Shown in pieces: positions 8,184 through 33,761 of a stretch of DNA of 34,737 nucleotides (its first letter is position 1; every line of letters starts with the position of its first letter). The DNA comes from Lachnospiraceae bacterium (GTDB lineage Bacteria > Bacillota > Clostridia > Lachnospirales > Lachnospiraceae): NCBI GenBank assembly GCA_024681985.1, contig JAIKZU010000115.1, positions 1-34,737 of the forward strand, given 5' to 3'. The notes under the pieces were generated by a model. That model worked only from the letters and a program-made list of their open reading frames with translations. It was not told the origin of the DNA and did no database searches. The position numbers and the translations under genes were made by a program.

Positions 8184-8201
8184 AAAAGAAGGGAGAAGAA
8201 A

Positions 8202-10789: not shown

Positions 10790-10799
10790 CACATCCTTT
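10753..10799 (+). terminator. Long imperfect hairpin at operon end
   Basis: AAAGGATGTGTTCAGC (10753-10768) pairs with GCTGACACATCCTTT (10785-10799), a 15-bp stem with one bulged base and a 16-nt loop, ending in TTT. It spans the last codons and stop of the 283-aa gene and is the likely end of the 6.1-10.8 kb transcript. Confidence 0.55.
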
Positions 10800-10834
10800 A
10801 GATAAACGTTTTCGTAGTATTGCCGGGTCTTGAA

Positions 10835-13238: not shown

Positions 13239-13284
13239 GCAGCGAGCAAGGCTTTAAAGCGTAAGCAGAAAGGAAGTAAGGAAA

Positions 13285-14676: not shown

Positions 14677-14689
14677 GAGGTGAAAACGT

Positions 14690-15931
14690 ATGGCAGTAAA
14701 CGAGCAGGATGTACAAAAGATCGTCAGACAGATCTTGAGTGAGATGGGAAATACTTCCGCCGGGGCCGAACCCGCAAGGGGAGCGTTTACCTCTTATACA
14801 TCCTTAGGAAACACCTCTGCCGGACAGATTCCCAAGACCGCTCATGTTGCGGTACTGGTGGAAAAGGAACGGTTCGAGGTAAAGGAATATCCCATCCCTC
14901 CGGTAGGAGATGACGATATTCTAGTCCGGGTGGAGGGCTGCGGTGTCTGCGGTACCGATGCTCACGAGTTCAAGAGAGATCCCTTCAACCTGATCCCGGT
15001 AGCTTTGGGACATGAAGGAACGGGCGAGATCGTAGCCATGGGCAAGAACGTGAAAAAGGACAGCGCCGGAAAAGATCTCCACATCGGAGACAAGGTGGTA
15101 ACCTGCATGATCTTCCACGACGACCCGGAGATCACCATGTTTGACTTGAACAAACAAAACGTAGGAGATGCGGATGTATACGGTCTTCTTCCGGATGACG
15201 ATTATCACCTGAACGGATGGTTCTCTGACTACATCTTCATCCGCAAAGGATCCACCATCTTTAATGTGAGCGATCTGGACTTAGACAGCCGGATCCTGAT
15301 CGAGCCGGCAGCGGTTTTGGTACACGCGGTGGAGAGAGCCAAGAGCACCAACATCTTACGGTTCAACTCCCGGGTAGCCGTACAGGGCTGCGGCCCCATC
15401 GGACTTTTGTGTATCGCAGTGCTGCGCACCATGGGGATCGAGAACATCACGGCGGTGGACGGCAATGAACAAAGACTTGCATTTGCCAAGCGCTTAGGTG
15501 CTGACCAGACCGTAAACTTCATGGAACACCAGGGGATCGAAGCCTTGACAAAGGCGGTGTACGATTCCTTTGGCGGACATTTGGCGGATTTCGCATTCCA
15601 GTGCACGGGTAATCCCAAGGCACACGCGAACATCTACAAGTTCATCCGCAACGGCGGCGGTCTTTGTGAACTGGGATTCTTCGTCAACGGCGGTGACGCC
15701 CAGATCAATCCCCACTTCGATCTTTGCTCAAAGGAGATCAATCTGGTGGGCTCCTGGGTATACACCTTAAGAGACTACGGTACCACCTTTGACTTCTTAA
15801 AGAGAGCAAAGGCCATCGGACTTCCGGTTTCGGAGTTGATCACACATAAATTCAAACTGGATGATATCAACGAGGCGTTAAAGACAAACCTGGCTATGAC
15901 CGGTTTAAAGATCGCCATCGTAAATCAGTAA
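14690..15931 (+). CDS. Zinc-type (MDR) alcohol dehydrogenase with encapsulation peptide
   Basis: A 413-aa medium-chain dehydrogenase, not the iron-type PduQ. Residues 4-18 (NEQDVQKIVRQILSE) form an encapsulation helix, then a linker with GNTSAG twice, then the MDR core from about residue 48. Catalytic zinc motifs: GCGVCGTDAHEF and ALGHEGTGEI. The four-Cys structural zinc lobe is missing (only one Cys in that stretch). Rossmann motif VQGCGPIGLL with an Asp after the second strand (AVDGNEQR) points to NAD. Likely reduces propanal to 1-propanol and possibly lactaldehyde to 1,2-propanediol; no other alcohol dehydrogenase is in the window. Strong RBS AGGAGGTG. Confidence 0.88.
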   Translation: MAVNEQDVQKIVRQILSEMGNTSAGAEPARGAFTSYTSLGNTSAGQIPKTAHVAVLVEKERFEVKEYPIPPVGDDDILVRVEGCGVCGTDAHEFKRDPFNLIPVALGHEGTGEIVAMGKNVKKDSAGKDLHIGDKVVTCMIFHDDPEITMFDLNKQNVGDADVYGLLPDDDYHLNGWFSDYIFIRKGSTIFNVSDLDLDSRILIEPAAVLVHAVERAKSTNILRFNSRVAVQGCGPIGLLCIAVLRTMGIENITAVDGNEQRLAFAKRLGADQTVNFMEHQGIEALTKAVYDSFGGHLADFAFQCTGNPKAHANIYKFIRNGGGLCELGFFVNGGDAQINPHFDLCSKEINLVGSWVYTLRDYGTTFDFLKRAKAIGLPVSELITHKFKLDDINEALKTNLAMTGLKIAIVNQ

Positions 15932-15987
15932 GTCGCCGAGCGACAAAGAGTAACAGGTAACACTTGCACGGGTAAACGGAGCAGATT

Positions 15988-16305
15988 ATGGAACATCAGG
16001 CAGTAGGACTATTGGAAGTATACGGATTGGTTTGTGCATTCTTGGCAGCAGATGCCGGGTGCAAGGCAGGGAATGTGACCCTGGAGGTCTTTGACAAAAA
16101 CAAACCCGCAAACGCCGACGCTCTTCCGGTACCTCTTTTGGTCACCATTAAATTCCGCGGTGCGGTTTCGGATGTAAAGGAGGCTATGGCCGCTGCATCC
16201 GAGATGGCAAAAAAGACCACGGGGATCGTCTGTTCCCACATCATACCGTCTCCCACGGAAGATACGGAAAAAATGTTAAAGATCAGTGCATTGGATAAGA
16301 ATTAA
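15988..16305 (+). CDS. BMC-H shell protein with enlarged pore loop
   Basis: A 105-aa single-domain BMC protein: GLLEVYGLVCAFLAADAGCKAGNV, LLVTIKFRGAVSDVKEAM and HIIPSPTED mark the fold. At the hexamer pore, where PduA-like proteins have KIGSG, this one has a longer loop NKPANADALPVP, an insertion of about 8 residues rich in Pro/Ala/Asn. That should narrow, gate or otherwise change the pore. Cysteines at the loop-facing helix (AGCKAG) and near the C-terminus (IVCSHI) are present but no Fe-S motif is evident. Preceded by GGTAAACGGAGC rather than a clean SD. First of four consecutive BMC-H genes. Confidence 0.88.
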   Translation: MEHQAVGLLEVYGLVCAFLAADAGCKAGNVTLEVFDKNKPANADALPVPLLVTIKFRGAVSDVKEAMAAASEMAKKTTGIVCSHIIPSPTEDTEKMLKISALDKN

Positions 16306-16326
16306 AGATAACAGGAGGAAAAAAAG

Positions 16327-16614
16327 ATGTCACAGTCACTTGAAGCATTAGGAATGGTAGAGACCAGAGGTCTTACAGCAGCCATCGAGGCAGCTGATGC
16401 AATGACCAAGGCGGCAGAGGTAACTCTGATCGGCACGGAAAAGATCGGATCCGGTCTCGTAACCGTCATGGTAAGAGGTGATGTAGGAGCTGTTAAGGCT
16501 GCCGTTGAAGCTGGTACTACCGCAGCTTCCAGACTGGGCGAGCTGGTAGCGACCCACGTGATCCCCAGACCCCACAATGACGTAGAGATGATCTTACCCA
16601 AGTTTAAGGGCTAA
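16327..16614 (+). CDS. pduA: BMC-H shell protein, PduA/EutM type (copy 1)
   Basis: A 95-aa canonical shell hexamer protein: [20 protein letters not shown], pore loop [16 protein letters not shown], and [15 protein letters not shown] at the end. The KIGSG pore is that of PduA, which passes 1,2-propanediol. It is identical in 81 of 95 positions (my count by eye) to the BMC-H at 17049, with one different BMC-H gene between them. RBS AGGAGG at normal spacing. Expected major facet protein. Confidence 0.93.
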
Positions 16615-16646
16615 GAAAAGGAACGAAAAGAGGAGAAGGCTAAGAA

Positions 16647-17015
16647 ATGAGCAGTGCCTACGGATTTATAGAAATTAGCGGTGTGGTGGCAGCCATCGAT
16701 GTGCTGGATACCATGTGCAAAGCCGCGGATGTGACCCTGGCCACCTGGGAGAGAAAACTGGGCGGTCGGTTGGTGACGCTGGTGGTAGAGGGAGAAGTAG
16801 AGGCAGTAAAGACAGCGGTAGCAGCCGGAGTCGAGCATGCCAATATCCGAAAGCCCGTGGCTTCCGGAGTGATCCCCAATCCTCATGAGGAGATCCGTAA
16901 GATCGTGGCCATTTCCGCAAGCCGTTTCAAAGGAAAGGGAGAATTACCCTCCGACGCAAAGATGCTCGGACAGGATCCCCCGGATTTCAATGTGAAGGAA
17001 CAAATGGAAAAATAA
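16647..17015 (+). CDS. BMC-H shell protein with C-terminal extension
   Basis: A 122-aa BMC protein: YGFIEISGVVAAIDVLDTMCK and SGVIPNPHEEIRKI frame the domain. The pore loop ERKLGGRLVTLVV puts an Arg next to the central glycines in place of GSG, giving a positively charged pore that could favour anionic metabolites. After residue about 95 a polar tail (FKGKGELPSDAKMLGQDPPD) of about 27 residues extends beyond the fold; it has no Cys cluster, unlike PduK tails. Start at 16647 is preceded by GAGGAGAAGG. Sits between the two near-identical PduA-like copies. Confidence 0.88.
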   Translation: MSSAYGFIEISGVVAAIDVLDTMCKAADVTLATWERKLGGRLVTLVVEGEVEAVKTAVAAGVEHANIRKPVASGVIPNPHEEIRKIVAISASRFKGKGELPSDAKMLGQDPPDFNVKEQMEK

Positions 17016-17048
17016 ACAAAAAGTTACAGATCAAAGGAGGTAATGATT

Positions 17049-17336
17049 ATGGCACAGTCACTTGAAGCATTAGGATTGGTGGAAACCAGAGGTTTGGTTG
17101 CAGCCATTGAGGCAGCTGACCAGATGTGCAAGGCAGCGAACGTAACACTGGTAGGTACGGAGAAGATCGGATCCGGTCTCGTGACCGTAATGGTAAGAGG
17201 CGATGTAGGAGCCGTTAAGTCTTCCGTGGAAGCAGGATCTTCCGCAGCATCCGCTCTCGGCGAGCTGGTAGCGACTCACGTGATCCCCAGACCTCACAAC
17301 GACGTTGAGATGATCCTGCCTAAGGTAAAGGCTTAA
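17049..17336 (+). CDS. pduA: BMC-H shell protein, PduA/EutM type (copy 2)
   Basis: A 95-aa canonical BMC-H with KIGSG pore. The ORF track begins at 17043 (MIMAQSL), but that ATG is only 2 nt after AGGAGG, while the ATG at 17049 is 8 nt away and gives the same N-terminus (MAQSLEALG) as the paralogue at 16327. Differences from copy 1 are mostly conservative and concentrated in helices (for example DQMCKAANV against DAMTKAAEV), leaving the pore unchanged. A PduA/PduJ-like pair is the obvious comparison. Confidence 0.93.
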
Positions 17337-17358
17337 GGAAGAGAAAGGAAGGCTTTGA

Positions 17359-17997
17359 TTGGACGCAAGCAGTGTAGAATATATTACAAGGCTGGTTCTT
17401 TCGGCCATGAACAGTGCAGATGATGATGTCAAAATGGCGGTGCCTGTTGGGGTATCCGCCAGACACATACATCTGACCCAGTCCGATGTGGAGAAGCTTT
17501 TTGGGCCGGGCTATCAGCTCACCAAAAAGAAGGAACTGATGGGCGGCCAATGGGCTGCCAATGAACAGTGCACACTGGTGGGACTGAAACTGCGTGCCAT
17601 CGAAAACGTTCGGATCTTAGGACCGGTTCGAAAGGCATCCCAGGTGGAGATCTCCGCCACGGACGCCAGAACCTTAGGAATCAGCGCTCCCCTTAGGCAG
17701 AGCGGGGATACCAAAGGGTCCGCGCCGATCGCACTGGTGGGACCGAAAGGAGCCATTTATCTCGAAGAAGGATGCATCGTTGCGGCACGTCATATCCATA
17801 TGACCCCTGTGGAGGCATCTCAGGCGGGTCTAAAGGACGGAGATTACGTGTCCGTAAAAATGGGGAATGAACGAGGCGCGGTACTGGACAATGTCAAGAT
17901 CCGCGTAGACGAGTCCTTTTCCCTGGAAATGCACATCGACACGGATGAGGCAAATGCATGCCAGATCCGACAGGGCGATGTCGCATACATCATTTAG
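17359..17997 (+). CDS. pduL: Phosphate propanoyltransferase PduL
   Basis: A 212-aa PduL-type phosphotransacylase converting propionyl-CoA and phosphate to propionyl-phosphate and CoA, recycling CoA inside the compartment. The two pseudo-symmetric beta-barrel halves carry the zinc motifs SARHIHLTQSDV (about residue 38) and AARHIHMTPVEA (about 145), with GPVRKASQVEIS between. TTG start at 17359, 6 nt after AAGGAAGG. Residues 2-18 (DASSVEYITRLVLSAMN) match the encapsulation helix of the aldehyde and alcohol dehydrogenases. A propionate or acetate kinase for the product is not in the window. Confidence 0.93.
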   Translation: MDASSVEYITRLVLSAMNSADDDVKMAVPVGVSARHIHLTQSDVEKLFGPGYQLTKKKELMGGQWAANEQCTLVGLKLRAIENVRILGPVRKASQVEISATDARTLGISAPLRQSGDTKGSAPIALVGPKGAIYLEEGCIVAARHIHMTPVEASQAGLKDGDYVSVKMGNERGAVLDNVKIRVDESFSLEMHIDTDEANACQIRQGDVAYII

Positions 17998-18011
17998 CGA
18001 GGGATCAAATA

Positions 18012-18293
18012 ATGATTATCGGAACAGTGATGGGTAGCATCTTTTCTACCCGAAAAAGCGAAAAACTGGTCGGAAACAAATTTATGATCGTTCGTCCGGA
18101 AAAGACCATGGCAGGAAACGGCAATGATCTCATAGCCATCGATATCATCGGCGCCGGCATCGGCGAAAAGGTTTTGGTGGCCACGGGCTCCGCGGCACGG
18201 ATCGGTTGTGACAAAGCAGATGCGCCGGTAGATGCCGCTATTGTTGGTATCGTAGACGAAGGACAGGACGGTATGGAGGTCATTTCCCAATGA
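18012..18293 (+). CDS. pduN: BMC-P vertex protein, PduN/EutN/CcmL type
   Basis: A 93-aa pentamer-forming vertex protein: MIIGTVMGSIFSTRKSEKL at the start and GSAARIGCDKADAPVDAAIVG near the end are diagnostic of the EutN/CcmL family. The ORF track start (17958) lies inside pduL; the ATG at 18012 follows GAGGG at 8 nt and gives the conserved N-terminus. It is the only vertex protein in the window. Its stop overlaps the ATG of the pduS-like gene (ATGA). Confidence 0.93.
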   Translation: MIIGTVMGSIFSTRKSEKLVGNKFMIVRPEKTMAGNGNDLIAIDIIGAGIGEKVLVATGSAARIGCDKADAPVDAAIVGIVDEGQDGMEVISQ

Positions 18294-19615
18294 CTTTGGA
18301 CGAGTTAAAAACAATTGCAAGAGAAAACGGTGTAGTGGGAGCCGGCGGTGCCGGCTTTCCGTCCTACGCCAAAATGACGGAAAAAGCAGACACGGTGATC
18401 CTAAACTGCGTGGAATGCGAACCGCTTTTGAAACTGCACAGACAGCTTTTGGCGGCTCACGGGCAGGATATCGTAAAGATGCTGGATCTGGTGCGGGATG
18501 CCATGGGAGCCAAAGAGGCAGTCATCGGCATCAAAAGTGAATACAAAGAGACCATCGACGCCATCAGTGGCGTTGTGGATCAATATGAAAATGTGAGAAT
18601 ACACACCCTTCGTTCCGCTTATCCCATGGGGGACGAAGTGGTGTTGATATATGAAGTGACGGGGAGAGTGATCCGTCCCGGCGGACTGCCCATTGACGAA
18701 AATGTGGTGGTCTACAACGTGGAGACCATGTACAATCTCTATCGGGCGGCTTTCGAAGGAACTCCGGTTTCGGACAAGGTAGTGTCCATCGTGGGAGAGA
18801 TCGATACCCCGAAGACCCTGCGGCTTCCCTTAGGAATGCGAGTGGAGGATGCGGTAAGACTGGCAGGAAAGGTGACCACACCCCATCCCGTCTATCTCAT
18901 GGGCGGCCCCATGATGGGACGTTTCGGCAGCAAAGATACGGTGATCACAAAGACCACCAATGCCATCATCATATTGCCCGAAGGACATAAATTGAAACAG
19001 AAGGCCAATAAGGATCTTCGGACGGAAAAGAGAAGAGCCTCCTCGGCGTGCTGCCAGTGCAGGACCTGTACGGATCTTTGCAGCCGGCATGCGCTGGGAC
19101 ACCCCATCGAACCCCACAGGGTGATGCGTGCCGTATCGGGCGGAGACAGTGCGGACCTTTCCGTATTTGTAAACACCATGTACTGCAGCGGCTGCGGTAT
19201 CTGTGAGATGTATGCATGTCCCCAGGGACTTTCTCCAAAGACCATCATCCAGGAGTTTAAGGGAGCCCTTCGAAAAGGCGGTATCAAGCCGGAAGCCATA
19301 GAATCTTCTCCGGTGGCAGAAGGTCGCGAGGAGCGAAAGGTTCCGGTACATCGTCTGGCCATGCGTTTGGGACTTTCACAGTATGATAAGGAAGCTCCCC
19401 TTTATGACAGCTGCACAGAGGCAGGAACTGTAAGCATCCCTTTGGGACAGCATATCGGTGCACCGGCAAAGGCAGTGGTAAAAAAAGGTGACCAGGTAAA
19501 AAAAGGACAACAGATCGCCCAAGCGGCAGAGGGATTGTCCGTAGGCATACACAGTTCCATAGACGGAGTCATCCTATCCGTCAGTGAGACGGACATAAAG
19601 ATAGAAAAAAGGTAA
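18290..19615 (+). CDS. pduS: PduS/RnfC-like iron-sulfur flavoprotein
   Basis: A 441-aa RnfC-type electron-transfer protein. Order: Gly-rich NADH/FMN site GVVGAGGAGFPSYAKM (about residue 12), RnfC core with SLBB-like segment, two 4Fe-4S motifs CCQCRTCTDLC and CSGCGICEMYACP (about 258-315), and a C-terminal barrel-sandwich (GQHIGAPAKAVVKKGDQV). In B12-dependent Pdu systems PduS is a cobalamin reductase; no cobalamin gene exists here, so oxidation of NADH or feeding electrons across the shell is more likely (inference). Overlaps the vertex-protein gene by 4 nt and directly precedes the BMC-T whose pore may hold an Fe-S cluster. Confidence 0.9.
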   Translation: MTLDELKTIARENGVVGAGGAGFPSYAKMTEKADTVILNCVECEPLLKLHRQLLAAHGQDIVKMLDLVRDAMGAKEAVIGIKSEYKETIDAISGVVDQYENVRIHTLRSAYPMGDEVVLIYEVTGRVIRPGGLPIDENVVVYNVETMYNLYRAAFEGTPVSDKVVSIVGEIDTPKTLRLPLGMRVEDAVRLAGKVTTPHPVYLMGGPMMGRFGSKDTVITKTTNAIIILPEGHKLKQKANKDLRTEKRRASSACCQCRTCTDLCSRHALGHPIEPHRVMRAVSGGDSADLSVFVNTMYCSGCGICEMYACPQGLSPKTIIQEFKGALRKGGIKPEAIESSPVAEGREERKVPVHRLAMRLGLSQYDKEAPLYDSCTEAGTVSIPLGQHIGAPAKAVVKKGDQVKKGQQIAQAAEGLSVGIHSSIDGVILSVSETDIKIEKR

Positions 19616-19627
19616 GGAGTCGGACAG

Positions 19628-20176
19628 ATGGCAAGAGCAATAGGAATGGTAGAATGTACCACGGTTTCCACAGGTTACAGGGCGGCGGATGAAATGTCAA
19701 AGACCGCAGAGGTGGAGCTGCTGATGGCAGAAGTGACCTGCCCCGGTAAGTTCGTGATCCTTATCACCGGAGAACTTTCCGCCGTACGGGCTTCCGTAGA
19801 CAGAGCCCAAAACGCATATGCGGACAAGGTGATCGATACCTTTGTTTTGGGAAATCCCCATGAATCCATCTTTCCGGCGATCTACGGAACGGCGGAGAGA
19901 GCGGATCTCGAAGCCTTGGGCGTATTGGAGACCTATGACGTGGCGGCTCTCATCGTAGCGGCGGATGTGGCGGCAAAGACAGCCATCGTGGATCTTTTGG
20001 AGATCCGGCTGGCAAAAGGCATGTGCGGCAAGAGTTACATGACCCTGACGGGCTCCGTTTCCGCAGTACAGGCGGCTATCGACAGTGCAAAGGCAGCAGC
20101 GGGCGACAAGGGGATGTTCTTGGACGAGGCAGTGATCCCCAGACCTTCTGCGGAACTGATGCCTTATATATTCTGA
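19628..20176 (+). CDS. pduT: BMC-T shell protein, PduT type with Cys38
   Basis: A 182-aa tandem-domain shell protein forming pseudohexameric trimers. Domain 1 MARAIGMVECTTVSTGYRAAD, domain 2 from EALGVLETYDVAALIVAADV. The first pore loop is EVTCPGKF with the Cys at position 38, the same position as the cysteine that holds a central [4Fe-4S] cluster in PduT, so an Fe-S pore for electron exchange is predicted. The second domain has AKGMCGKSYM at its pore loop, adding another cysteine. It lies 12 nt after the PduS-like gene, its proposed redox partner. It is the only BMC-T in the window. Confidence 0.92.
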   Translation: MARAIGMVECTTVSTGYRAADEMSKTAEVELLMAEVTCPGKFVILITGELSAVRASVDRAQNAYADKVIDTFVLGNPHESIFPAIYGTAERADLEALGVLETYDVAALIVAADVAAKTAIVDLLEIRLAKGMCGKSYMTLTGSVSAVQAAIDSAKAAAGDKGMFLDEAVIPRPSAELMPYIF

Positions 20177-20205
20177 CCGAAACATCATAAACAGGAGATT
20201 GATCT

Positions 20206-20988
20206 ATGCTGAGTGCGGAACGCAGAAATCTGATCTTAAAGCAGGTGCAGGAAGAAAAAAAGGTAGTGGTAAGTCAGTTGAGCCGCACCTTTGATGTTTC
20301 CGAAGAGACCATCCGAAGAGACTTGGAAAAACTGGAGGAAGAAGGCTACGTGGTAAAAAGCTACGGCGGAGCCATCTTAAAAGAGGACATCGGCAGAGAC
20401 CTTCCCTTTAACGTACGCTACCGAATGAATCCGGAGGGGAAAGCTTTGATCGCCCGGCTGGCGGCGGAAGAGATCCGGGACAATGACTATATATTCATGG
20501 ATGCGTCTTCCACCACCATCTTTTTATCCCAGGCCCTCCGGAAAAAAGAATTCGAAAAACTCACGGTGATCACCAACTCCATTGAAAATGCGGTGATCCT
20601 GGGTTCCCACCCCGGATGTGAGATCGTTCTTTCCGGCGGATCCCTTCGATCCGAATCCATGTCCCTGATGGGACCGAAGGCCCTGGATTTTATCAGCGCA
20701 TATCATGTGAGCAAAGCCTTCATTTCCTGCCGCGGCATCGACTTAAACCACGGCGTGACGGAAGGCAGTGATGAGATCGCCGGCATCAAGCAGGCGGTGA
20801 TCAAAAACGCAGACAACATTTATCTCTTGGCAGACAAAGATAAATTGGACCAGGTTTCCTTTGCAAAGACCTGTGAGTTGGGAAAGATCCACACCCTGAT
20901 CACGGATGAAAGACCGAATGAAAACTGGGAGACCACTCTTTATGAGAGAAATATCCGGCTCATCTGTCCGGAAGAAACACAGGCGTAA
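20206..20988 (+). CDS. DeoR-family transcriptional regulator
   Basis: A 260-aa regulator: N-terminal winged HTH (VVVSQLSRTFDVSEETIRRD, then LEEEGYVVKSYGGA, the DeoR signature) and a C-terminal sugar-phosphate isomerase-like sensor domain with MDASSTTIFLSQAL, VITNSIEN, VLSGGSLRSES and LLADKDKLDQ. Family members are usually repressors released by a phosphorylated sugar intermediate, here perhaps rhamnulose-1-P, fuculose-1-P or DHAP. RBS AGGAG precedes the ATG. It is inside the operon it probably controls; the 11931-11971 repeats are candidate operators. Confidence 0.9.
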   Translation: MLSAERRNLILKQVQEEKKVVVSQLSRTFDVSEETIRRDLEKLEEEGYVVKSYGGAILKEDIGRDLPFNVRYRMNPEGKALIARLAAEEIRDNDYIFMDASSTTIFLSQALRKKEFEKLTVITNSIENAVILGSHPGCEIVLSGGSLRSESMSLMGPKALDFISAYHVSKAFISCRGIDLNHGVTEGSDEIAGIKQAVIKNADNIYLLADKDKLDQVSFAKTCELGKIHTLITDERPNENWETTLYERNIRLICPEETQA

Positions 20989-21014
20989 GTTTTATTATTT
21001 GGGAGAAATGTCAT

Positions 21015-23546
21015 ATGAAAGACTTTGATAGCACACCGGTGCAAAAATCCGAGCGTATCACCAGACTGGTAAGACATCTGTTCGAAAAGATGCCGGAGAT
21101 CGAGCCTGTAAGGGCAGAGCTGATCACCGAGTCCTACCGTTCCACGGAGGGACTGCCGGAGACCACGCGGAAAGCTTTAGCTTTCGATCATATTTTAAAG
21201 AATCTGCCCATCATCATCCGTCCGGAGGAGCTGATCGTGGGAAGTACCACCATCGCACCCCGGGGATGTCAGACCTATCCGGAGTTTTCCTACGAGTGGC
21301 TGGAGGCAGAGTTTGATACGGTGGAGCATCGTTCGGCAGATCCTTTTTACATCTCCGAAGATACCAAAGCACGCTTGAAGGCTGTGAATCCCTATTGGAA
21401 GGGAAAGACCACTTCGGAACTGGCCAGAGCCTATATGGCACCCGAAACCTTACGGGCAATGGATCACAATGTGTTTACCCCGGGAAATTATTATTATAAT
21501 GGGGTGGGCCATGTCAATGTGCACTACGACAGGGTGATAAAGGAAGGCCTGTCCGGTATCATCGCGCAGACCAAAGAGGCCTTGGATGCCCTTACCTTCT
21601 GTGATCCGGAGTACGCTACCAAGCGGCGCTTCTTAGAAGCCGTCATCATTTCCTGCAGCGCGGTCATTCATTATGCGAAGCGCTACAGTCGACTGGCAAA
21701 AGAGGAAGCAGAAAAAGAGAAGGACGCAAAGAGAAAAGCAGAGCTTTTAAAAATATCCGAAGTATGCGACCATGTGCCCCTGCATCCTGCCAGAAATTTC
21801 TGGGAAGCATGCCAGGCATTCTGGTTCGTGCAGCAGACCATACAGATCGAGTCCTCCGGACATTCCATTTCTCCGGGACGCTTTGACCAGTATATGTATC
21901 CTTACTATGCATCGGACTTAAAAGCCGGTACCATGACACGGGAGGAAGCCCAGGAACTCATCGACTGTGTATGGGTGAAGTTAAACGACTTGAACAAGGT
22001 GCGGGATGCGGTCTCTGCAGAAGGCTTTGCGGGATATTCCCTGTTCCAAAACCTCATCGTGGGAGGCCAGACACCGGAGGGAGAGGATGCCACCAATGAT
22101 CTTTCCTTCATGTGCTTAGACGCCACCAAGCATGTATTTTTACCCCAGCCTTCCATTTCCATCCGGGTATGGAACGGTTCCGCCCAGGAGCTTTTGATCC
22201 GGGCGGCGGAGGTGACCAGGACCGGCATCGGTTTCCCGGCGTATTACAACGATGAGATCATCATTCCTTCCATGGAAAATCGGGGCATTCCCCTTTCCGA
22301 CGCCAGAAACTACAGCATCATCGGCTGTGTGGAACCCCATGTTCCCGGCAAAGAGGACGGATGGCATGATGCCGCATTCTTTAATATGGTGCGTCCTTTG
22401 GAGATGGTCTTCTACAACGGTTATGACCAGGGAGAGGAAGCATCGATCCATACCGGAAATGTGGAGAACTTTACTTCCTACGAGGAATTCAAAGCGGCGT
22501 ATAAAAAGCAGATGGAATATAACATCGCTCTTTTGGTCAATGCCAATAATGCCATTGACCGGGCCCATGCCGAGAGAAGTCCTCTGCCCTTTGAGTCGGC
22601 TTTGATCGACGACTGCATCGGGAAGGGAAAACCTTTACAGAGCGGCGGAGCCGTTTATAATTTTACCGGTCCCCAGGGCTTTGGTATCGCCAATGTGGCG
22701 GATTCCCTCTACACCGTAAAGAAGCTGGTATTCGAAGAAAAACGCTTTACCTTAGGGGAATTAAAGCGGGCCATGGAGATGAATTTCGGAAAGGGATTTG
22801 ACGAGATCACCGCCCGGGAGACAGCGGCGCAGGTGGCCCGGGAAATGAAAAGACAGGGAAAAGTTGCCACGGAAGATATCATTTCCGGCACCATCCGACA
22901 GGTACTTACCATGGAGCTTCCTCCGGAAGAAAAAAACCGGATGGAGGAGATCTGGCAGATGATCGACGACCTTCCCAAATACGGAAATGATATTGACGAG
23001 GTGGATGAGATCGCCCGGGAAGCGGCGCATTTTTATACGAAACCGCTGCCGAATTACAAAAATCCCAGAGGGGGCATCTTCCAAGCGGGACTCTATCCCG
23101 TATCCGCAAACGTTCCTTTGGGAGCACAGACCGGTGCCACCCCTGACGGACGTCTGGCCCATATGCCGGTGGCGGACGGAGTTTCCCCCACCAACGGAAA
23201 GGACCTCCATGGCCCCACGGCATCCTGCAATTCCGTTGCCAGATTGGATCACGGGGATGCTTCCAACGGTACGCTGTTCAATATGAAGATCCATCCTACT
23301 GCCATGAGCGGTGAAAAGGGACTTGCGGATTTTGTTTCGCTGGTGCGGGGCTTCTTTGATCAGAAGGGTATGCACATGCAGTTTAACGTGGTGGACAAAG
23401 AAACTCTCCTGGATGCCCAGGCACATCCGGAACGGTACCAGGGACTGGTGGTCCGGGTTGCCGGATATTCGGCGCTCTTTACCACACTTTCCAAGTCACT
23501 GCAGGACGATATAATCAGGAGAACGGCCCAGGGCCAGTACAGATAA
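21015..23546 (+). CDS. Glycyl radical 1,2-propanediol dehydratase (B12-independent)
   Basis: An 843-aa glycyl radical enzyme that dehydrates 1,2-propanediol to propanal. The thiyl-radical site is IIGCVEPHVPGKED with Cys438 and Glu440, and the glycyl loop is VRVAGYSALF with Gly817, 27 residues from the C-terminus. HNVFTPGNYYYNGVGH carries the substrate-binding His known from glycerol and diol dehydratases; the CVEP tetrad marks diol dehydratases rather than pyruvate formate-lyase. The N-terminus begins directly with the enzyme fold (SERITRLVRHLFEKMPEI), with no separate encapsulation peptide. Glycerol dehydratase is the main alternative; the rhamnose and PduP context favours propanediol. The activase gene starts 1 nt after its stop. 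Confidence 0.92.
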   Translation: MKDFDSTPVQKSERITRLVRHLFEKMPEIEPVRAELITESYRSTEGLPETTRKALAFDHILKNLPIIIRPEELIVGSTTIAPRGCQTYPEFSYEWLEAEFDTVEHRSADPFYISEDTKARLKAVNPYWKGKTTSELARAYMAPETLRAMDHNVFTPGNYYYNGVGHVNVHYDRVIKEGLSGIIAQTKEALDALTFCDPEYATKRRFLEAVIISCSAVIHYAKRYSRLAKEEAEKEKDAKRKAELLKISEVCDHVPLHPARNFWEACQAFWFVQQTIQIESSGHSISPGRFDQYMYPYYASDLKAGTMTREEAQELIDCVWVKLNDLNKVRDAVSAEGFAGYSLFQNLIVGGQTPEGEDATNDLSFMCLDATKHVFLPQPSISIRVWNGSAQELLIRAAEVTRTGIGFPAYYNDEIIIPSMENRGIPLSDARNYSIIGCVEPHVPGKEDGWHDAAFFNMVRPLEMVFYNGYDQGEEASIHTGNVENFTSYEEFKAAYKKQMEYNIALLVNANNAIDRAHAERSPLPFESALIDDCIGKGKPLQSGGAVYNFTGPQGFGIANVADSLYTVKKLVFEEKRFTLGELKRAMEMNFGKGFDEITARETAAQVAREMKRQGKVATEDIISGTIRQVLTMELPPEEKNRMEEIWQMIDDLPKYGNDIDEVDEIAREAAHFYTKPLPNYKNPRGGIFQAGLYPVSANVPLGAQTGATPDGRLAHMPVADGVSPTNGKDLHGPTASCNSVARLDHGDASNGTLFNMKIHPTAMSGEKGLADFVSLVRGFFDQKGMHMQFNVVDKETLLDAQAHPERYQGLVVRVAGYSALFTTLSKSLQDDIIRRTAQGQYR

Positions 23547-23547
23547 T

Positions 23548-24348
23548 ATGATCGATAATTCCTATCTAAACGTTAAAGGCAGGATATTTGATATCCAGAG
23601 ATATTCCATACATGACGGCATCGGCATACGGACCATTGTCTTTTTGAAGGGTTGCGTGTTAAGATGCAGATGGTGCTGTAATCCGGAATCTCAGAGTTAT
23701 GAGATCGAGACCATGATGGTAAACGGACGTCCCCGCACCTATGGACAGGATGTCACGGTCCGGGAAGTCATGGAGACCGTACGGCGGGATATGCCGTATT
23801 ACAACCGTTCGGACGGGGGACTTACCCTATCCGGCGGAGAGAGTCTCTTGCAGATCAAATTTGCGGAAGCCCTCCTTCGGGCCGGCAAAGATCTGGGGGT
23901 CAATACGGCACTGGAAAGCATGGGCTATGCTGATTTTTCCGATATCCGACGGATCCTTCCTTTTTTGGATACCTATCTGATGGACATCAAACACATGGAT
24001 CCCATCAAGCACAAGGAATGGTGCGGCAAGGAAAACACTCTCATGACGGAGAATGCCAAAAAGATCGCCGCATCCCGCCAGACGAAGCTTGTGATCCGGG
24101 TGCCGGTGATCCCGGGATTTAATGATACCGAACAGGAGATCTTAGACATTGCTCGTTTTGCGGATTCCCTTCCGGGAGTGGAGGAGATCGACCTCTTGCC
24201 CTATCATAATTTCGGTGAAGGAAAGTATGCGGGACTGGGACGACCCTATCCCATGGGAGATGCGAAACGGCCGACGGATGACTTCATGCAAGCCCTGAAA
24301 TCTCAGGTGGAGGGGAAGACCGATCTGTATTGTCAGATCGGCGGCTGA
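23548..24348 (+). CDS. Glycyl radical enzyme activase (radical SAM), compact form
   Basis: A 266-aa radical-SAM activase that installs the glycyl radical on the dehydratase. The SAM cluster motif is KGCVLRCRWCCNPES (CX3CX2C) near residue 35, followed by the Gly-rich SAM site TLSGGESLLQ and a late strand IRVPVIPGFND. The ferredoxin-like insert with two extra 4Fe-4S clusters found in many activases, including that of glycerol dehydratase, is absent: between WCCNPES and VREVMETV are only about 30 residues without Cys. In size it resembles pyruvate formate-lyase activase. It follows the dehydratase by 1 nt and its TGA overlaps the next start (ATGA type). Confidence 0.92.
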   Translation: MIDNSYLNVKGRIFDIQRYSIHDGIGIRTIVFLKGCVLRCRWCCNPESQSYEIETMMVNGRPRTYGQDVTVREVMETVRRDMPYYNRSDGGLTLSGGESLLQIKFAEALLRAGKDLGVNTALESMGYADFSDIRRILPFLDTYLMDIKHMDPIKHKEWCGKENTLMTENAKKIAASRQTKLVIRVPVIPGFNDTEQEILDIARFADSLPGVEEIDLLPYHNFGEGKYAGLGRPYPMGDAKRPTDDFMQALKSQVEGKTDLYCQIGG

Positions 24349-27713: not shown

Positions 27714-28349
27714 ATGGAACGCAATACGTTTGCTCTATCCGTAAAGGAAGGAAAGAAGCTTGCTTTCAGAAAAGGGCTGGGAGAAAAGTGGAGTGACATC
27801 ACCGCACTTTTGGATGAAAAAAAGGCATCCAATTTCAGTATCTGGCAGATCGAAGGGGTAGTGTTTGCCTATTATGAAACGGAGGAAGAAGCACCGGAAT
27901 TATATGGGGGATTAAAAGAGATTTTCGATGGGATGGAAGATGCCTTTGACTGGATCTCGGATCCTACCCAAAAGATGCGCCTCATGTATCATAACTTCGG
28001 TATCATAAGATCCTCCAAGGAGCTGATCCGTCACCGGGTGTTTGTGACCCGTTTAAAAGAAGGGTTTGAAGAAGAGTATAAAGCTCGTCATGATGTTTTG
28101 GTGGAACAGAGGAACGGAGTGCCCGACGAAGGCCCGGATTCCAATTTTTCCATCTGGTACGCCGGCGGTTTTATCATGGGATATGACGAGATCGATACCA
28201 CCATGGAAAAGGATGAGACCGCCGAGGAACACGAGGCAACAAAAGCATGGGAAGAGCGGATGCTGGAGATCATGGAGTGGCTCACGGACGACGTGGACTG
28301 GTTGACGGATCTGCATCACGACCATGTGGTGAGGATCGGACATCATTAA
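27714..28349 (+). CDS. rhaM: Tandem two-domain L-rhamnose mutarotase-like protein
   Basis: A 211-aa protein made of two RhaM-like domains (about 1-100 and 107-211), twice the usual 104 aa. RhaM interconverts rhamnose anomers for the isomerase. Aligned with E. coli RhaM, the C-terminal half keeps the catalytic Tyr and His as Y122-x3-H126 (EEYKARHDVL), whereas the N-terminal half has F18 and L22 at those places (LAFRKGLGEKW) and should be inactive, though it keeps the Trp equivalent to W26. Both halves share the strand NFSIW. Since RhaM is a dimer, the fusion looks like a built-in heterodimer. Good RBS GAGGAGGAG; 25 nt after the kinase gene. Confidence 0.82.
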   Translation: MERNTFALSVKEGKKLAFRKGLGEKWSDITALLDEKKASNFSIWQIEGVVFAYYETEEEAPELYGGLKEIFDGMEDAFDWISDPTQKMRLMYHNFGIIRSSKELIRHRVFVTRLKEGFEEEYKARHDVLVEQRNGVPDEGPDSNFSIWYAGGFIMGYDEIDTTMEKDETAEEHEATKAWEERMLEIMEWLTDDVDWLTDLHHDHVVRIGHH

Positions 28350-28412: not shown

Positions 28413-28467
28413 GATGATTAGTGAAAAGTAAATGTCGCTAATAATAAGGATGAAAGGGGGACAGGAA

Positions 28468-29985
28468 ATGGCTGAGGATATCATTCTGGAGCTGAAGGGG
28501 ATCACAAAGATCTTTCCCGGCGTAAAGGCGCTGAATAACGTGCAGTTCCAGTTGAGACGCGGAGAAGTGCATGCGCTCATGGGCGAAAACGGAGCCGGCA
28601 AATCCACGTTTATCAAAGTCATCACCGGAGTACACAGTGCTGAAGAAGGCCATATGTATTTGAACGGACAGGAGGTCTTTTTCAAAGGACCGTTGGATGC
28701 GCAGGAGGCGGGTATCGCCGCCGTATACCAGCATCCTACGTCCTATCCGGAACTTTCCGTTACGGAAAATATTTTCATGGGTCATGAGACCGTCAAAGGA
28801 GGTATCATTCAGTGGCGCGAGATGAACGCCAAGGCCCAGGAACTTTTAGACAGTCTGGATGCGGATTTCAAGGCGACGGACGAAGTCGGTGCCTTATCCG
28901 TGGCACAGCAGCAGATGATGGAGATCGCAAAAGCGTTATCCACCAATGCGCAGATCTTTATTTTAGACGAGCCCACGGCAGCTCTTACGGCAAATGAGTC
29001 GGAGAAGCTCTACGGCATCGTCGACAAATTACGTGAGGACGGTAAGTCCGTCATCTTTATTTCCCACAGATTTGAAGATATGTACCGGCTGGCCAGCCGG
29101 GTTACGGTGTTCCGTGACAGCCAGTATATCGGCACCTATGATGTGGACGGTATTTCCAATGCGGATCTGATCAAGGCCATGGTAGGTCGTGAGATCACGG
29201 ATATGTACCCGAAGCAGGAGATCAAACTCGGTGAAGAGATGCTGCGGGTGGAAGGCATGAGCCGCGTCGGCTATTTCAAGGATGTATCCTTCGATGTAAA
29301 GGCCGGAGAGATCGTAGGCTTAACAGGCCTGGTAGGAGCCGGACGTACGGAGACCATCGAGTCCGTTTGCGGTATCACCAAACCGGACAGCGGAAAGGTT
29401 TACCTCCAAGGCAAACCCATCACCATTAAGAATCCTTCCGATGCCATGGAAGCAGGCATCATCTTATTGCCGGAGGATCGTCAGAGACAGGGACTGATCC
29501 TTTCCTGGGGCTTGGGCAGAAACGTGACCCTTCCCATCCAGGATGTTCTGGCAAACAAGGGATTCAATGACGAGAAAAAGGAAAGAGAACTTTCCAAAAA
29601 GCATTTGGAGGATGTGGACACCAAGGCGGTCACCATCTTCCAGCCTGCAAGTTCCTTATCCGGCGGCAATCAGCAGAAGGTTGTGGTGGCCAAGGCTTTG
29701 GCCCAGTCCCACATGAAAGTGGTGATCATGGACGAGCCTACCAAGGGTATCGATGTAGGCGCTAAAAAAGAGATCTACGAGATCATGGGTGATCTGGCAA
29801 AGAAAGGCTACGGCATCATCATGATCTCTTCCGAAATGCCGGAGATCATCGGTATGTGCGATCGTATCTTTGTAATGTGTAACGGTCGTGTATCCGGCTG
29901 TCTGGACCGTTCCGAAGTGACACAGGAGAAGATCCTGGAGCTTTCCATGGAACAGTCGGGCACCAAGAAGGGAGGAGCAGCATAA
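28468..29985 (+). CDS. Sugar ABC transporter ATPase, RbsA/rhamnose type
   Basis: A 505-aa fused two-domain ATPase. Domain 1: Walker A GENGAGKST, signature LSVAQQQMMEIAKALS, Walker B IFILDEPTAALT. Domain 2: degenerate Walker A GLVGAGRTET, signature LSGGNQQKVVVAKAL, Walker B VVIMDEPTKGIDVG. This active/degenerate pattern is standard for carbohydrate CUT2 importers. The ORF track begins at 28432 (MSLIIRM...), but the ATG at 28468 follows AGGGGG at 7 nt and matches the family N-terminus. Two permeases and a binding protein follow. Rhamnose is inferred from the neighbours rhaM and rhaB and from the binding-protein sequence. Confidence 0.92.
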   Translation: MAEDIILELKGITKIFPGVKALNNVQFQLRRGEVHALMGENGAGKSTFIKVITGVHSAEEGHMYLNGQEVFFKGPLDAQEAGIAAVYQHPTSYPELSVTENIFMGHETVKGGIIQWREMNAKAQELLDSLDADFKATDEVGALSVAQQQMMEIAKALSTNAQIFILDEPTAALTANESEKLYGIVDKLREDGKSVIFISHRFEDMYRLASRVTVFRDSQYIGTYDVDGISNADLIKAMVGREITDMYPKQEIKLGEEMLRVEGMSRVGYFKDVSFDVKAGEIVGLTGLVGAGRTETIESVCGITKPDSGKVYLQGKPITIKNPSDAMEAGIILLPEDRQRQGLILSWGLGRNVTLPIQDVLANKGFNDEKKERELSKKHLEDVDTKAVTIFQPASSLSGGNQQKVVVAKALAQSHMKVVIMDEPTKGIDVGAKKEIYEIMGDLAKKGYGIIMISSEMPEIIGMCDRIFVMCNGRVSGCLDRSEVTQEKILELSMEQSGTKKGGAA

Positions 29986-30965
29986 TGAAAAAGAAAAGTT
30001 TATGGCAGACCCTGACGGGCTCCCGTGAGATGAGCCTGGTGGCGGTGCTGATCGTGCTTCTCATCGTAATCACGATCTTAAGCCCTTCCTTTTTATCACC
30101 TACGAATATCTCACAGATCTTTCGTAACAATGCGCTGACCTTACTGATGGCCATCGGAATGCTCTGTGTCATGCTGACAGCGGGGATCGATATTTCCATT
30201 ACGTCTACACTGGCTTTTGCAGGAATGACTATCGGTATGCTGCAGAAATATGACGTGATCCACAACACCTTCCTTCTGTTTCTCATCGGTACCGGCATCG
30301 GTATCGTATGCGGACTCTTAAACGGCGTGATCATCGCAAAGGCAAAGGTGGCTCCCATTATCTGCACCATGGGCTTTATGTACATCTGGCGAGGCATGGC
30401 ATACGTGGTATCCGGCAATGCCTGGGCCAGCGGTGCCGACGTGGCAGGCTTTTCCGATTTCGGAAAGGAAGGATCCCCGGGACCCTACATCATTTTGATC
30501 GTGGCTTATGTGATCTTTTTCATCGTGATGAAGTGGACCCGCTTCGGCCGCAAGATCTATGCTGTGGGAAGTAACGCAGAAGCAGCCCGGATCTCCGGTA
30601 TCAATGTGGATCGCACCGTCATCAGCGTGTACACCATCATGGGACTTCTTGCCGGATTGGCCGGTGTGCTTTCCGTTTCCATCTACGCTTCAGCGCAGCC
30701 CAACATGCAGTATGCAAAGGAAATGGACGTGATCGCAGCCTGCGTGATCGGCGGCGTATCCATGAACGGCGGACGCGGAAGTGTGGCAGGTACTTTCCTG
30801 GGCGCACTGATCATCGCGATCATCGCGAAGGCCCTTCCTCTGGTGGGAATCGATGCCATCGCGCAGAACCTTGTAAAGGGTATCATCATCCTGGCAGTGG
30901 TCATCTTGAACGTGATCACTCAGAGAATGATGGATCATCAGAATTTGGTAAGGAGGGAGATGTAA
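29985..30965 (+). CDS. Sugar ABC transporter permease 1 (CUT2)
   Basis: A 326-aa permease of the RbsC/BPD_transp_2 family with about 8-10 TM helices. Family motifs include MLCVMLTAGIDISITSTLAF near residue 57, GLLNGVIIAKAKVAPIICTMG, and GGVSMNGGRGSVAGTFLGAL toward the end. The ATG overlaps the ATPase stop by one base (TAATG). It pairs with the second permease to form a heterodimeric channel, as in rhamnose RhaP/RhaQ. Confidence 0.9.
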   Translation: MKKKSLWQTLTGSREMSLVAVLIVLLIVITILSPSFLSPTNISQIFRNNALTLLMAIGMLCVMLTAGIDISITSTLAFAGMTIGMLQKYDVIHNTFLLFLIGTGIGIVCGLLNGVIIAKAKVAPIICTMGFMYIWRGMAYVVSGNAWASGADVAGFSDFGKEGSPGPYIILIVAYVIFFIVMKWTRFGRKIYAVGSNAEAARISGINVDRTVISVYTIMGLLAGLAGVLSVSIYASAQPNMQYAKEMDVIAACVIGGVSMNGGRGSVAGTFLGALIIAIIAKALPLVGIDAIAQNLVKGIIILAVVILNVITQRMMDHQNLVRREM

Positions 30966-30966
30966 G

Positions 30967-31974
30967 ATGGCTGGAAAATCCGGTAGAGAAATATCCGCCG
31001 TCCCCGAGGGCGGATTAAAAGAAAAGCTCCTTACCTGGGAAGGAGCACTGATCCTGATCTTCGTCGCGGTCAACATTTTGGGTGTGATCATCTCACCCGT
31101 ATACAACGCGACCAATGTGTTAAGAGAGATGCCCAAATATCTGGCAGAGGCCTTTATGGTATTCGGTATGGGTTACATCCTGGTGCTGGGAGACATCGAT
31201 ATCTCCGTTGGTTCCATCGTATGTCTGTCCGCCACCATGGCCTGCTTCGCCGGAAACGCCGGACTTCCCTTCGGCGTAGTGGTTTTGGTATGTGTGCTGA
31301 CGGGACTTTGCTGCGGCATGTTCAACGGACTCATCGCCACAAAGTTTACGGAGCTTCCCACCATGATCGTTACCTTGGGAACCCAGATCGTGTTCCGCGG
31401 TATCGCGGAAGTGTCTTTGGGCAGCGGCGGATCCATCTCCATGCAGAATACGGAAGGTCTGTCCCTCATTGCGAAAAAGATCGGACCTTTTCCCATTTCA
31501 TTTTTCGTCCTGTTGATCTTTGCCATCGTATTCATCACACTGTTGTCAAAGACCACTTTCGGCCGTAAGCTCTACGCCATCGGTTCAAACCAGACGGCAG
31601 CCAAGTATGCGGGTATCAATGTACAGGGATCCCGATTCTTCTGCTTCTCCCTGTTGGGATTCTTATCCGGCGTATCGGCACTGTTTTTGCTCTCTACCTT
31701 ATACGGAGCAAACACTACCACCGGAAACGGATTTGAAATGGAAGTCATTGCCATGTGCGTATTCGGAGGCATTGCCACCACCGGTGGAAAGGGTAACCTC
31801 ATCGGCGGATTCATCGCAGCCTTCATCATCTTCTGCTTAAAGATCGCTCTGGGACAGAGAAACATCAACACCCAGCTGATCCTTGTGATCATTGGCCTGA
31901 TGCTGATCGTCTCCGTTGTGATCCCGGGACTCGGTTCCTATTTTGGCGCAAAGAAAAAATCTACCACAAAATAA
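30967..31974 (+). CDS. Sugar ABC transporter permease 2 (CUT2)
   Basis: A 335-aa second BPD_transp_2 permease, about 8-10 TM helices, starting 1 nt after the first. A charged N-terminal tail (about 25 residues) precedes TM1 (LILIFVAVNILGVII). Motifs ILVLGDIDISVGSIVCLSAT, TTFGRKLYAIGSNQTAAKYA and GGIATTGGKGNLIGGF are family-typical. The RBS GGAGG lies within the end of permease 1, consistent with coupled translation. Confidence 0.9.
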   Translation: MAGKSGREISAVPEGGLKEKLLTWEGALILIFVAVNILGVIISPVYNATNVLREMPKYLAEAFMVFGMGYILVLGDIDISVGSIVCLSATMACFAGNAGLPFGVVVLVCVLTGLCCGMFNGLIATKFTELPTMIVTLGTQIVFRGIAEVSLGSGGSISMQNTEGLSLIAKKIGPFPISFFVLLIFAIVFITLLSKTTFGRKLYAIGSNQTAAKYAGINVQGSRFFCFSLLGFLSGVSALFLLSTLYGANTTTGNGFEMEVIAMCVFGGIATTGGKGNLIGGFIAAFIIFCLKIALGQRNINTQLILVIIGLMLIVSVVIPGLGSYFGAKKKSTTK

Positions 31975-32015
31975 AAAAATTTACGATAGTTTTATAAAAA
32001 ACCATTTGGTAGGAT
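31968..32015 (+). promoter_or_regulatory. Candidate regulated promoter of the binding-protein gene
   Basis: AAAATAAAAAAATTTACGAT (31968-31987) matches the element at 28365 in 19 of 20 positions and again lies 22 nt before a -10-like hexamer, TAGGAT (32010-32015). It overlaps the permease stop codon. A separate promoter would give the binding protein a higher copy number than the membrane parts, as is usual for ABC importers. Confidence 0.5.
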
Positions 32016-32060
32016 TTAGTCATCAGTAATACAAAACAAATCAAAGGAGGATAATGTATT

Positions 32061-33188
32061 ATGAAGAAAAAGGTACTTGGTCTGTTACTGGCCGCAACAA
32101 TGTCCATCGGTATGCTGGCCGGATGTGGCGGCTCCGGATCTGCTGATACAAGCGCATCAACCGATACCGCAGCAACCACCGAAGAAGCAGCTCCTGCTGC
32201 AGATACTTCTTCCGAAGAGGCAGCTCCCGCAGCAGCAGCTTCCGGCGAAGGAAAGACCTACGCACTGGTTACCAAGTCTGCAGGTAATGCATTCATGGAA
32301 CTGTTGGGACAGGGCTTTAAGGAAGCAGTTGAGGCTTCCGGCGGCACAGCCATCATCAAGGATCCCGCATCCGCTACAGCTGATGCACAGATCTCCGAGA
32401 TCTCTTCTCTGATCTCTCAGGGTGTTGATTCCATCCTCGTAGCTGCTAACGATGAGAACGCTCTGCAGGCAGTTCTGCAGGAGGCTTCCGATGCAGGTAT
32501 CAAGATCCTCACCGTTGACTCCGACGTTGCTGCCAACAGCCGTGCAGTATTCGTAAACCAGGCTTCCACCGAGCTCATCGGCCAGACCCTTTTGGATGCT
32601 TGCTATGACATCGCAGGCGGCGAAGGACAGTATGCGATCCTTTCCGCTACATCTCAGGCAACCAACCAGAACGCATGGATCGAAGCTATGAAGGCAGCTG
32701 CTGAAGCTGACTCCAAGTATGCAAACCTTGAGCTTGTTGAAGTTGCTTATGGTGATGACGAGCCGCAGAAGTCTACCGACCAGACACAGGCACTTCTTGA
32801 GAAGTATCCCGACCTGAAGGTTATCTGCGCACCGACCACCGTTGGTATCGCTGCTGCAGCTAAGGTTCTTCAGGACTCCGGTTCTTCCGTTAAGTTGACA
32901 GGTCTTGGACTTCCTTCCGAAATGGTTGAGTACATCGGCGAAGACGATGCACATTCTTGCCCTTATATGTATCTGTGGAACATGATCGACCTTGGTAACC
33001 TTGCAGGTTACACATCCGTTGCTCTCGTTAACGGCGATCTGACAGGTGCTGTAGGTGATACCTACGAAGCAGGCAGCATGGGAACCTTCGAAGTAGTTGA
33101 CGTAAACGGAGCTACACAGGTTATCCTTGGTAACCCCTTCAAGTTTGATGCTTCCAACGTACAGGAGTGGGCTGATAAGGGAATGTAA
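32061..33188 (+). CDS. Rhamnose-type sugar-binding lipoprotein
   Basis: A 375-aa exported lipoprotein: signal peptide with lipobox MLAGCGGSG (Cys at about 21), then a Ser/Thr/Ala/Glu-rich linker to about residue 65, then a periplasmic-binding-protein-1 domain (Peripla_BP_4). The C-terminal part, TGLGLPSEMVEYIGEDDAHS followed by YLWNMIDLGNLAGYTS and ILGNPFKFDASNVQEW, resembles the RhaS-type rhamnose-binding protein of rhizobial rhamnose importers. Strong RBS AAAGGAGG. The gene uses many more GCT/CTT/GTT codons than its neighbours, a sign of high expression. It delivers sugar to the two upstream permeases and could also inform the YesM-type kinase. Confidence 0.9.
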   Translation: MKKKVLGLLLAATMSIGMLAGCGGSGSADTSASTDTAATTEEAAPAADTSSEEAAPAAAASGEGKTYALVTKSAGNAFMELLGQGFKEAVEASGGTAIIKDPASATADAQISEISSLISQGVDSILVAANDENALQAVLQEASDAGIKILTVDSDVAANSRAVFVNQASTELIGQTLLDACYDIAGGEGQYAILSATSQATNQNAWIEAMKAAAEADSKYANLELVEVAYGDDEPQKSTDQTQALLEKYPDLKVICAPTTVGIAAAAKVLQDSGSSVKLTGLGLPSEMVEYIGEDDAHSCPYMYLWNMIDLGNLAGYTSVALVNGDLTGAVGDTYEAGSMGTFEVVDVNGATQVILGNPFKFDASNVQEWADKGM

Positions 33189-33191
33189 TAT

Positions 33192-33761
33192 ATGAATGAG
33201 AACTTATGGTCTTATGAGTATAAGAAAGAGACCGTCCGCGAAAAGCGGGCGGCTCTTCTTTTACAGATGAAAGAATCGGACGGAGAGGACTCTCCCGAAT
33301 ATCGTTTCCGAAAGGAGATCTTCGATCATCGTTACACAACGAAAGACGGACAGGAGATCGATACGTTTATCAGGGGATGGGTACTGCTGTCTTATTATCA
33401 AAAAGGATTTGTCTTTCCGGGAGACAGGAACAGAGCTCATGGCGAAGCGGACGAGACCTTGAAGGAATGGTTTGCGGACAAGGTATACGAGCCGGAGAGC
33501 ATGGAGGAGAGGGTGGTCTTGGATGAGTTATATAATATGACGCTCCTTTATCTCACCCTTTGTGAAGACGACAAAAACTTCGGATCGTTGATCCTGGGGA
33601 TCGGCAGGATGAAGGAAGACCGTCTCCATGACAAGATCGCTCATACCATCCGCTCCATGGCGGTGGATCTTCCGAAGAGACTTGGAATGGAACGGCAATT
33701 CAAACTGTTTACGAGAGCCGCCAGAGAGGCTTTCCGTGACAGATACGGTAAGGATCTATAG
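33192..33761 (+). CDS. Unrecognised 189-aa protein between binding protein and rhaB
   Basis: A soluble, charged, mostly helical protein starting 3 nt after the binding-protein stop; AAGGGA lies 9 nt upstream. No signal peptide, membrane helix or known motif is visible. Features: basic N-terminus (YEYKKETVREKRAALLLQMK), a central hydrophobic helix (FIRGWVLLSYYQKGFVF) and a basic C-terminal segment (LFTRAAREAFRDRYGKDL). The position inside the rhamnose operon directly before rhamnulokinase suggests a role in rhamnose catabolism or its control, but this is context only. Confidence 0.75.
   Translation: MNENLWSYEYKKETVREKRAALLLQMKESDGEDSPEYRFRKEIFDHRYTTKDGQEIDTFIRGWVLLSYYQKGFVFPGDRNRAHGEADETLKEWFADKVYEPESMEERVVLDELYNMTLLYLTLCEDDKNFGSLILGIGRMKEDRLHDKIAHTIRSMAVDLPKRLGMERQFKLFTRAAREAFRDRYGKDL

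Follow-up and report, generated by a model that had tools for sequence, protein, structure and literature searches.

Gene Content and Context of the rhaM2 Locus

The window analyzed here (i.e., the whole stretch of 34,737 nt representing positions 1 to 34,737 of contig JAIKZU010000115.1 from the Lachnospiraceae bacterium assembly GCA_024681985.1) contains a gene for a tandem RhaM-family protein, designated rhaM2 here, which is located between a propanediol bacterial microcompartment (BMC) locus upstream and a RhaS-type importer with rhamnulokinase downstream (Table 1). Its ATG start is preceded by a strong Shine-Dalgarno stretch (gaggaggaggagaagga) and lies 25 bases behind the stop codon of the histidine kinase gene; about 80–120 bases separate rhaM2 from the downstream sugar ABC importer. 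The earlier note on this DNA had described a 211-aa protein with two RhaM-like halves, and the Pfam model rhaM (PF05336) does match the protein twice. The whole protein scored 52.8 bits (cut-off 23.4), which places it in this family; the C-half alone scored 35.3 bits and the N-half alone 21.5 bits, i.e., slightly below the cut-off, which is exceeded by the N-halves of most homologues. The NCBI L-rhamnose mutarotase equivalog model (TIGR02625) gave 32.5 bits, far below its cut-off of 99.6, which leaves rhaM2 outside the equivalog. RhaM has subunits of about 104 aa, works as a dimer, and uses a Tyr and a His in catalysis; rhaM2 carries two domains, rather than one of this size, in a single chain.

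Table 1. Coordinates of the features found at and around rhaM2 in the window.
Feature	Position	Strand	Evidence
Glycyl-radical propanediol microcompartment locus (aldolase, PduP, alcohol dehydrogenase, PduL, PduS, PduT-like, DeoR, glycyl-radical dehydratase, activase)	12438..24348	+	NCBIfam
AraC-type response regulator	24330–25886	+	Pfam
His_kinase sensor, directly upstream of rhaM2	25883–27688	+	Pfam
rhaM2, tandem RhaM-family protein (211 aa)	27714..28349	+	ORF, Shine-Dalgarno, two PF05336 stretches, 87 tandem relatives, AF2 model
N-half, residues 1–100, RhaM fold without catalytic His (F18, L22, W26; no Trp at 76/77)	27714..28013	+	1x8d profile match, half model, PDB matches, column counts
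Residues 88–96 (MRLMYHNFG), most conserved run of the N-half, last N-half strand in full model	27975..28001	+	Column counts, AF2 model
C-half, residues 103–211 (keeps Y122, R125, H126, N144, W179; changed F145 (Y41), V130 (W26), E180 (W77))	28020..28346	+	PF05336 35.3 bits, invariant columns
Codons Y122 to H126, Y-x3-H pair	28077..28091	+	Translation, alignment with E. coli RhaM Y18/H22
Sugar ABC importer (ATPase, two permeases, RhaS-type binding protein)	28432..33188	+	Pfam
RhaS-type binding protein	32061–33188	+	TIGR02637 RhaS, 303 bits (cut-off 342)
DUF6553 protein, between RhaS-type binding protein and rhaB	33192–33761	+	PF20190, 135 bits
Rhamnulokinase rhaB, truncated by contig end	33771..34736	+	TIGR02627, E 3e-111

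Among the neighboring genes, the glycyl-radical activase (23548–24348, + strand) is only 266 aa long, spans about 35 fewer model positions between its ends when compared to TIGR02494, and looks as if an extra iron-sulphur cluster insert were missing. The region 4583–10789 (+ strand) encodes a CstA-type carrier followed by a histidine kinase/response regulator pair and three proteins with no Pfam match (8202–8915, 8912–9937, and 9938–10789). No copy of the DUF6553 gene was found near the tandem gene among 80 related loci. A near relative (L034) has no response regulator and kinase corresponding to those at 24330–27688; its tandem gene directly follows the activase gene.

Residue Pattern of the Two Halves

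A search of 397 genomes of the window's family identified 16 tandem proteins, and scanning 84,980 species genomes yielded 168 relatives, the best 80 of which were retained; all residue counts given here refer to 87 distinct tandem sequences. Alignment to E. coli RhaM, with the reference sequence taken from the K-12 record, showed that the residue numbering of the earlier note was correct. The substrate contacts in E. coli RhaM are taken here to be Y18, H22, Y41, W76, and W77 (UniProt P32156). In the C-half, Y122, H126, and V130 stand at E. coli Y18, H22, and W26, respectively, and Y122, R125, H126, N144, F145, W148, W179, and E180 are invariant (87/87). The Tyr/His pair previously assigned to positions 122/126 is thus present in all 87 proteins, and the Y-x3-H motif (Tyr18, His22) occurs in the C-half only. 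C-halves keep Y18, H22, N40, and W76 of RhaM and carry F at position 41, E at position 77, and mostly V or I at position 26. Y18, H22, N40, Y41, and W76 are present in each of the 23 single RhaM-family proteins used for comparison; none of the 23 has E at position 77, where some carry A, N, or D, and conservation of the second Trp is therefore not general in the wider family. The combination of Tyr41 with Trp76-Trp77 was found in neither half, as these positions are F, W, and E in the C-half, and F or M followed by mostly no Trp in the N-half.

The family profile aligned the N-half with E. coli RhaM 1x8d (E 2e-7), placing F18, L22, and W26 opposite Y18, H22, and W26. His is absent from N-half position 22 in all 87 tandem proteins (L in 83, V in three, and I in one), and the loss of this His is therefore old and fixed. 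Position 18 is Y in 50 and F in 37 of the proteins; of the F18/L22 pair emphasized previously, the absence of His is a general property and Phe18 is not fixed. W26 is present in all 87 N-halves, in agreement with the claim that this Trp was kept by the N-half and missing from the C-half. N-halves also keep N40, have lost H22 and Y41 (position 41 being F or M), and have lost W76/W77 with few exceptions. Their invariant polar residues are R3, N40, S42, and E55, and 25 of their positions show at least 95% identity; the run at 88–96 includes M88, L90, M91, and G96 in 87/87, R89 in 86/87, and Y92 in 85/87 proteins. Another conserved His in the N-half site, which the earlier note had named as a finding that would speak against it, was not found among the 87 proteins, as no N-half His is invariant and position 93 is H in 60, Q in 16, E in 10, and Y in one. 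Y53 was considered as a substitute Tyr in the N-half site and rejected, since most Lachnospiraceae RhaM proteins also have Tyr there. The residue pattern is a family trait, i.e., more than chance in one sequence. The description of rhaM2 as a mutarotase with one dead half consequently holds for the catalytic His, which is lost throughout the N-halves, but the C-half is not simply intact; its alterations (Trp77 to Glu, Tyr41 to Phe, and loss of Trp26) had, apart from the missing Trp26, gone unnoticed in the earlier note.

Predicted Structure

An AlphaFold2 model of the full-length protein, computed with the family alignment (pLDDT 87.6, pTM 0.81), contains two beta-alpha-beta-beta-alpha-beta-beta domains, in both of which the strands and helices follow one another in the same sequence. 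A PDB search with the full chain gave tandem ABM-type barrels as the best matches and the RhaM structures 6hhn and 1x8d lower. The isolated N-half was modeled with a pLDDT of 89.4, and its top three PDB matches (6hhn, 1x8d, and 7byu; TM about 0.5–0.6) are all rhamnose/fucose mutarotases; TM values were 0.62 against 6hhn and 0.61–0.63 against 1x8d, and the modeled N-half has the RhaM fold. On the basis of the profile match to 1x8d (see above) and this fold search, a chance likeness of the N-half to RhaM was rejected. Strand E89–95 forms in the full-length model and is absent from the isolated N-half, where the pLDDT of residues 91–100 falls to 57. In these models, the behavior of the 88–96 run is compatible with a strand resting on the C-half, as would be expected for a fused dimer; it could also be an end effect of the cut at residue 100.

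Origin, Distribution, and Selection

A tree was built from three sets of 23 sequences each (N-halves, C-halves, and single proteins); with 116 columns, this short alignment limits the resolution. N-halves, C-halves, and single proteins formed three clades, and the N- and C-halves were grouped with a support of 100/96. The two halves are sister clades apart from the 23 single-domain members, upholding the proposed duplication and fusion and indicating one old event; judging from this tree, the duplication-fusion probably occurred once, in an ancestor within Lachnospirales. A fusion of two unrelated family members was rejected because the halves group together against the 23 single proteins, although 116 columns leave room for unsampled relatives. 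The stem branch of the C clade is long (1.64 changes per column) and was followed by slow evolution. Tandem proteins occur in the window's family and in a second family of its order (9/295 genomes), and none came from the remaining 398 genomes sampled across the phylum; the few tandem records whose titles point outside Lachnospirales carry metagenome-bin labels. Two proteins (L017 and L018) represent a deep branch of the tandem family with about 40% identity to the window protein, and weaker-scoring tandem proteins were observed in another family of the order (G475, G521, G536, and G558).

Mean pairwise identity is 0.70 for the C-half versus 0.51 for the N-half, with the C-half being higher in 99% of pairs. 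Median dN/dS is 0.146 for the N-half (maximum 0.58) and 0.054 for the C-half among 64 unsaturated pairs. Both halves are under purifying selection, and the N-half is not decaying; together with the retained RhaM fold, this suggests that the N-half is kept for something.

Link to Rhamnose Genes

Rhamnose surroundings like those in the window were found for 10 of the 87 tandem genes, in five separate places in the tree. Most other tandem homologues are lone genes with varied neighbors; among the neighboring clusters, only part of which were named, no family except the rhamnose importer was outstanding as a conserved operon partner. For most homologues, the link to rhamnose therefore rests on co-occurrence, with related genomes not being independent points. 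A strong rhamnulokinase match (E < 1e-100) was present in 16/16 tandem-bearing genomes, as compared to 162/381 others among the 397 genomes (Fisher p 1.8e-6, relatedness ignored). Of the two isomerase types, RhaA and RhaI, the search covered rhaA (TIGR01748); this gene turned up neither in the draft genome containing the window nor in seven other tandem genomes.

A single-domain RhaM-family gene is also present in 8 of the 16 tandem-bearing genomes. At one locus (L052, about 10001–11050), a rhamnose importer is followed by the tandem gene and then by a gene for an ordinary 103-aa RhaM, which represents a natural pair for comparison of the fused and unfused forms. Because both forms coexist, the tandem gene is not just a replacement, and simple replacement of RhaM by the tandem protein was rejected.

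Proposed Function and Alternative Explanations

On balance, and with moderate confidence, we favor the interpretation that the rhaM2 family acts in the rhamnose pathway as a mutarotase or ring-opener with a single site, with an active C-half and the N-half as a fixed dimer partner. The two halves would pack like both subunits of the RhaM dimer, with the last strand of the N-half probably laid on the C-half. The working site would be in the C-half only and would be built from Tyr122, His126, Trp179, and the invariant Glu180, the last of these replacing the second Trp of RhaM; this site may catalyze ring opening and closure of L-rhamnose or a closely related sugar. The sugar would enter via the adjacent RhaS-type importer, and the product would feed an isomerase, rhamnulokinase, and later the 1,2-propanediol microcompartment. 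The N-half, lacking the catalytic His as well as the Trp pair, may have been retained as a permanent partner needed for a complete fold, and perhaps also forms one side of the C-half site. A regulatory N-half or an active site shared between the halves, both raised in the earlier note, would likewise be conceivable. As described for YhcH, the role of an anomerase can be to provide a sugar in its open form, and a similar purpose has been suggested for rhamnose mutarotases encoded beside isomerases (PMC8141875). The absence of W26, Y41, and W77 of RhaM from the C-half counts against the one-site reading.

Two of these substitutions (at positions 41 and 77) are also arguments for a C-half with changed chemistry or substrate, in which Glu180 would be a new acid/base beside His126, acting on another aldose or ketose or in a related proton transfer, rather than as an L-rhamnose mutarotase. 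We regard this as unlikely, although several observations speak for it: Glu at 77 and Phe at 41 occur in all C-halves (87/87 for Glu) and Tyr41 in 23/23 single members, none of which has Glu at 77, and the long stem of the C clade with slow evolution afterwards, the score far below the RhaM equivalog cut-off, and the coexistence with ordinary RhaM, even in adjacent genes, point in the same direction. However, single members already vary at position 77 (A, N, D), and the genomic link points to rhamnose genes. A further step along this line, which we consider rather unlikely, would make the tandem proteins a separate enzyme family and not L-rhamnose mutarotases at all, with one copy as scaffold and a new His126-Glu180 site serving another step or another sugar in anaerobic deoxyhexose use beside ordinary RhaM.

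It is also conceivable, but improbable in our judgment, that rhaM2 encodes a non-catalytic sugar binder that senses rhamnose or hands it over, e.g., to the neighboring two-component system or transporter. The gene is directly behind the response regulator and kinase genes in the window and at one related locus (L033), and the N-half keeps its invariant polar residues (R3, N40, S42, and E55) without the His; however, a mere binder would hardly need Tyr122 and His126, which are conserved in 87/87 proteins, the near relative L034 has no adjacent two-component genes, and most homologues are not near such a system. The faster divergence of the N-half might suggest that rhaM2 is a normal RhaM to which a functionless, decayed copy in the process of being lost is attached; this reading is already contradicted by the N-half dN/dS, which did not exceed 0.58 in the 64 usable pairs, and by the 25 highly conserved N-half positions among 87 proteins, and we consider it very improbable.

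The gene is carried by common gut bacteria, including Blautia, Mediterraneibacter, Schaedlerella, and others, and automatic annotation likely labels the tandem protein as L-rhamnose mutarotase despite its differing key residues. If the one-site mutarotase reading holds, rhaM2 would illustrate cleanly how a homodimeric enzyme can become a single-site protein encoded in one chain; since some genomes harbor both the ancestral RhaM and the fused version, one could test directly what a second site is worth and whether the dead half acts as a scaffold. If the substrate has changed, the tandem protein would represent a so far unassigned step in the fermentation of deoxyhexoses.

Comparison with Known Systems

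No paper on a tandem or two-domain RhaM was found in the literature. Compared with RhaM/YiiL (PF05336; E. coli 1x8d, Rhizobium leguminosarum RhaU 2qlw, and Formosa 6hhn), both halves belong to the family by sequence, the model of the N-half is closest to 6hhn and 1x8d, and the C-half keeps Y18, H22, N40, and W76. The tandem protein differs in having two domains in one chain, an N-half without H22, W76, and W77, a C-half with F for Y41, mostly V or I for W26, and E for W77, and a score below the TIGR02625 cut-off. The gene rhaU is in an operon with importer and kinase genes (PMC3870299), and rhaM2 is likewise found beside a RhaS-type importer and a kinase. The L-fucose mutarotase of Acidovorax (7byu), also of the RhaM family, is the third-best fold match of the N-half and shares the link to a deoxyhexose pathway; it is, however, a single-domain protein and shows lower similarity.

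The best whole-chain matches were tandem antibiotic-monooxygenase-type barrels (WhiE-ORFI 9lmn, Abx(+)O 9ltx, FN1347 3mcs, and HmoB 3tvz), in which two ferredoxin-like halves also replace a dimer; fused barrels of this fold are thus already known elsewhere, although these proteins have a different chemistry, 6–14% identity, and TM values of only about 0.3–0.5. The fucose/rhamnose BMC locus of Clostridium phytofermentans and Roseburia inulinivorans has a gene set similar to that upstream of rhaM2, with a glycyl-radical propanediol dehydratase (PMC3557285). There, an E. coli-like mutarotase is encoded in a separate operon, Cphy_1148–1149, away from the BMC (PMC3557285), whereas the tandem gene described here is located between the BMC and importer genes.
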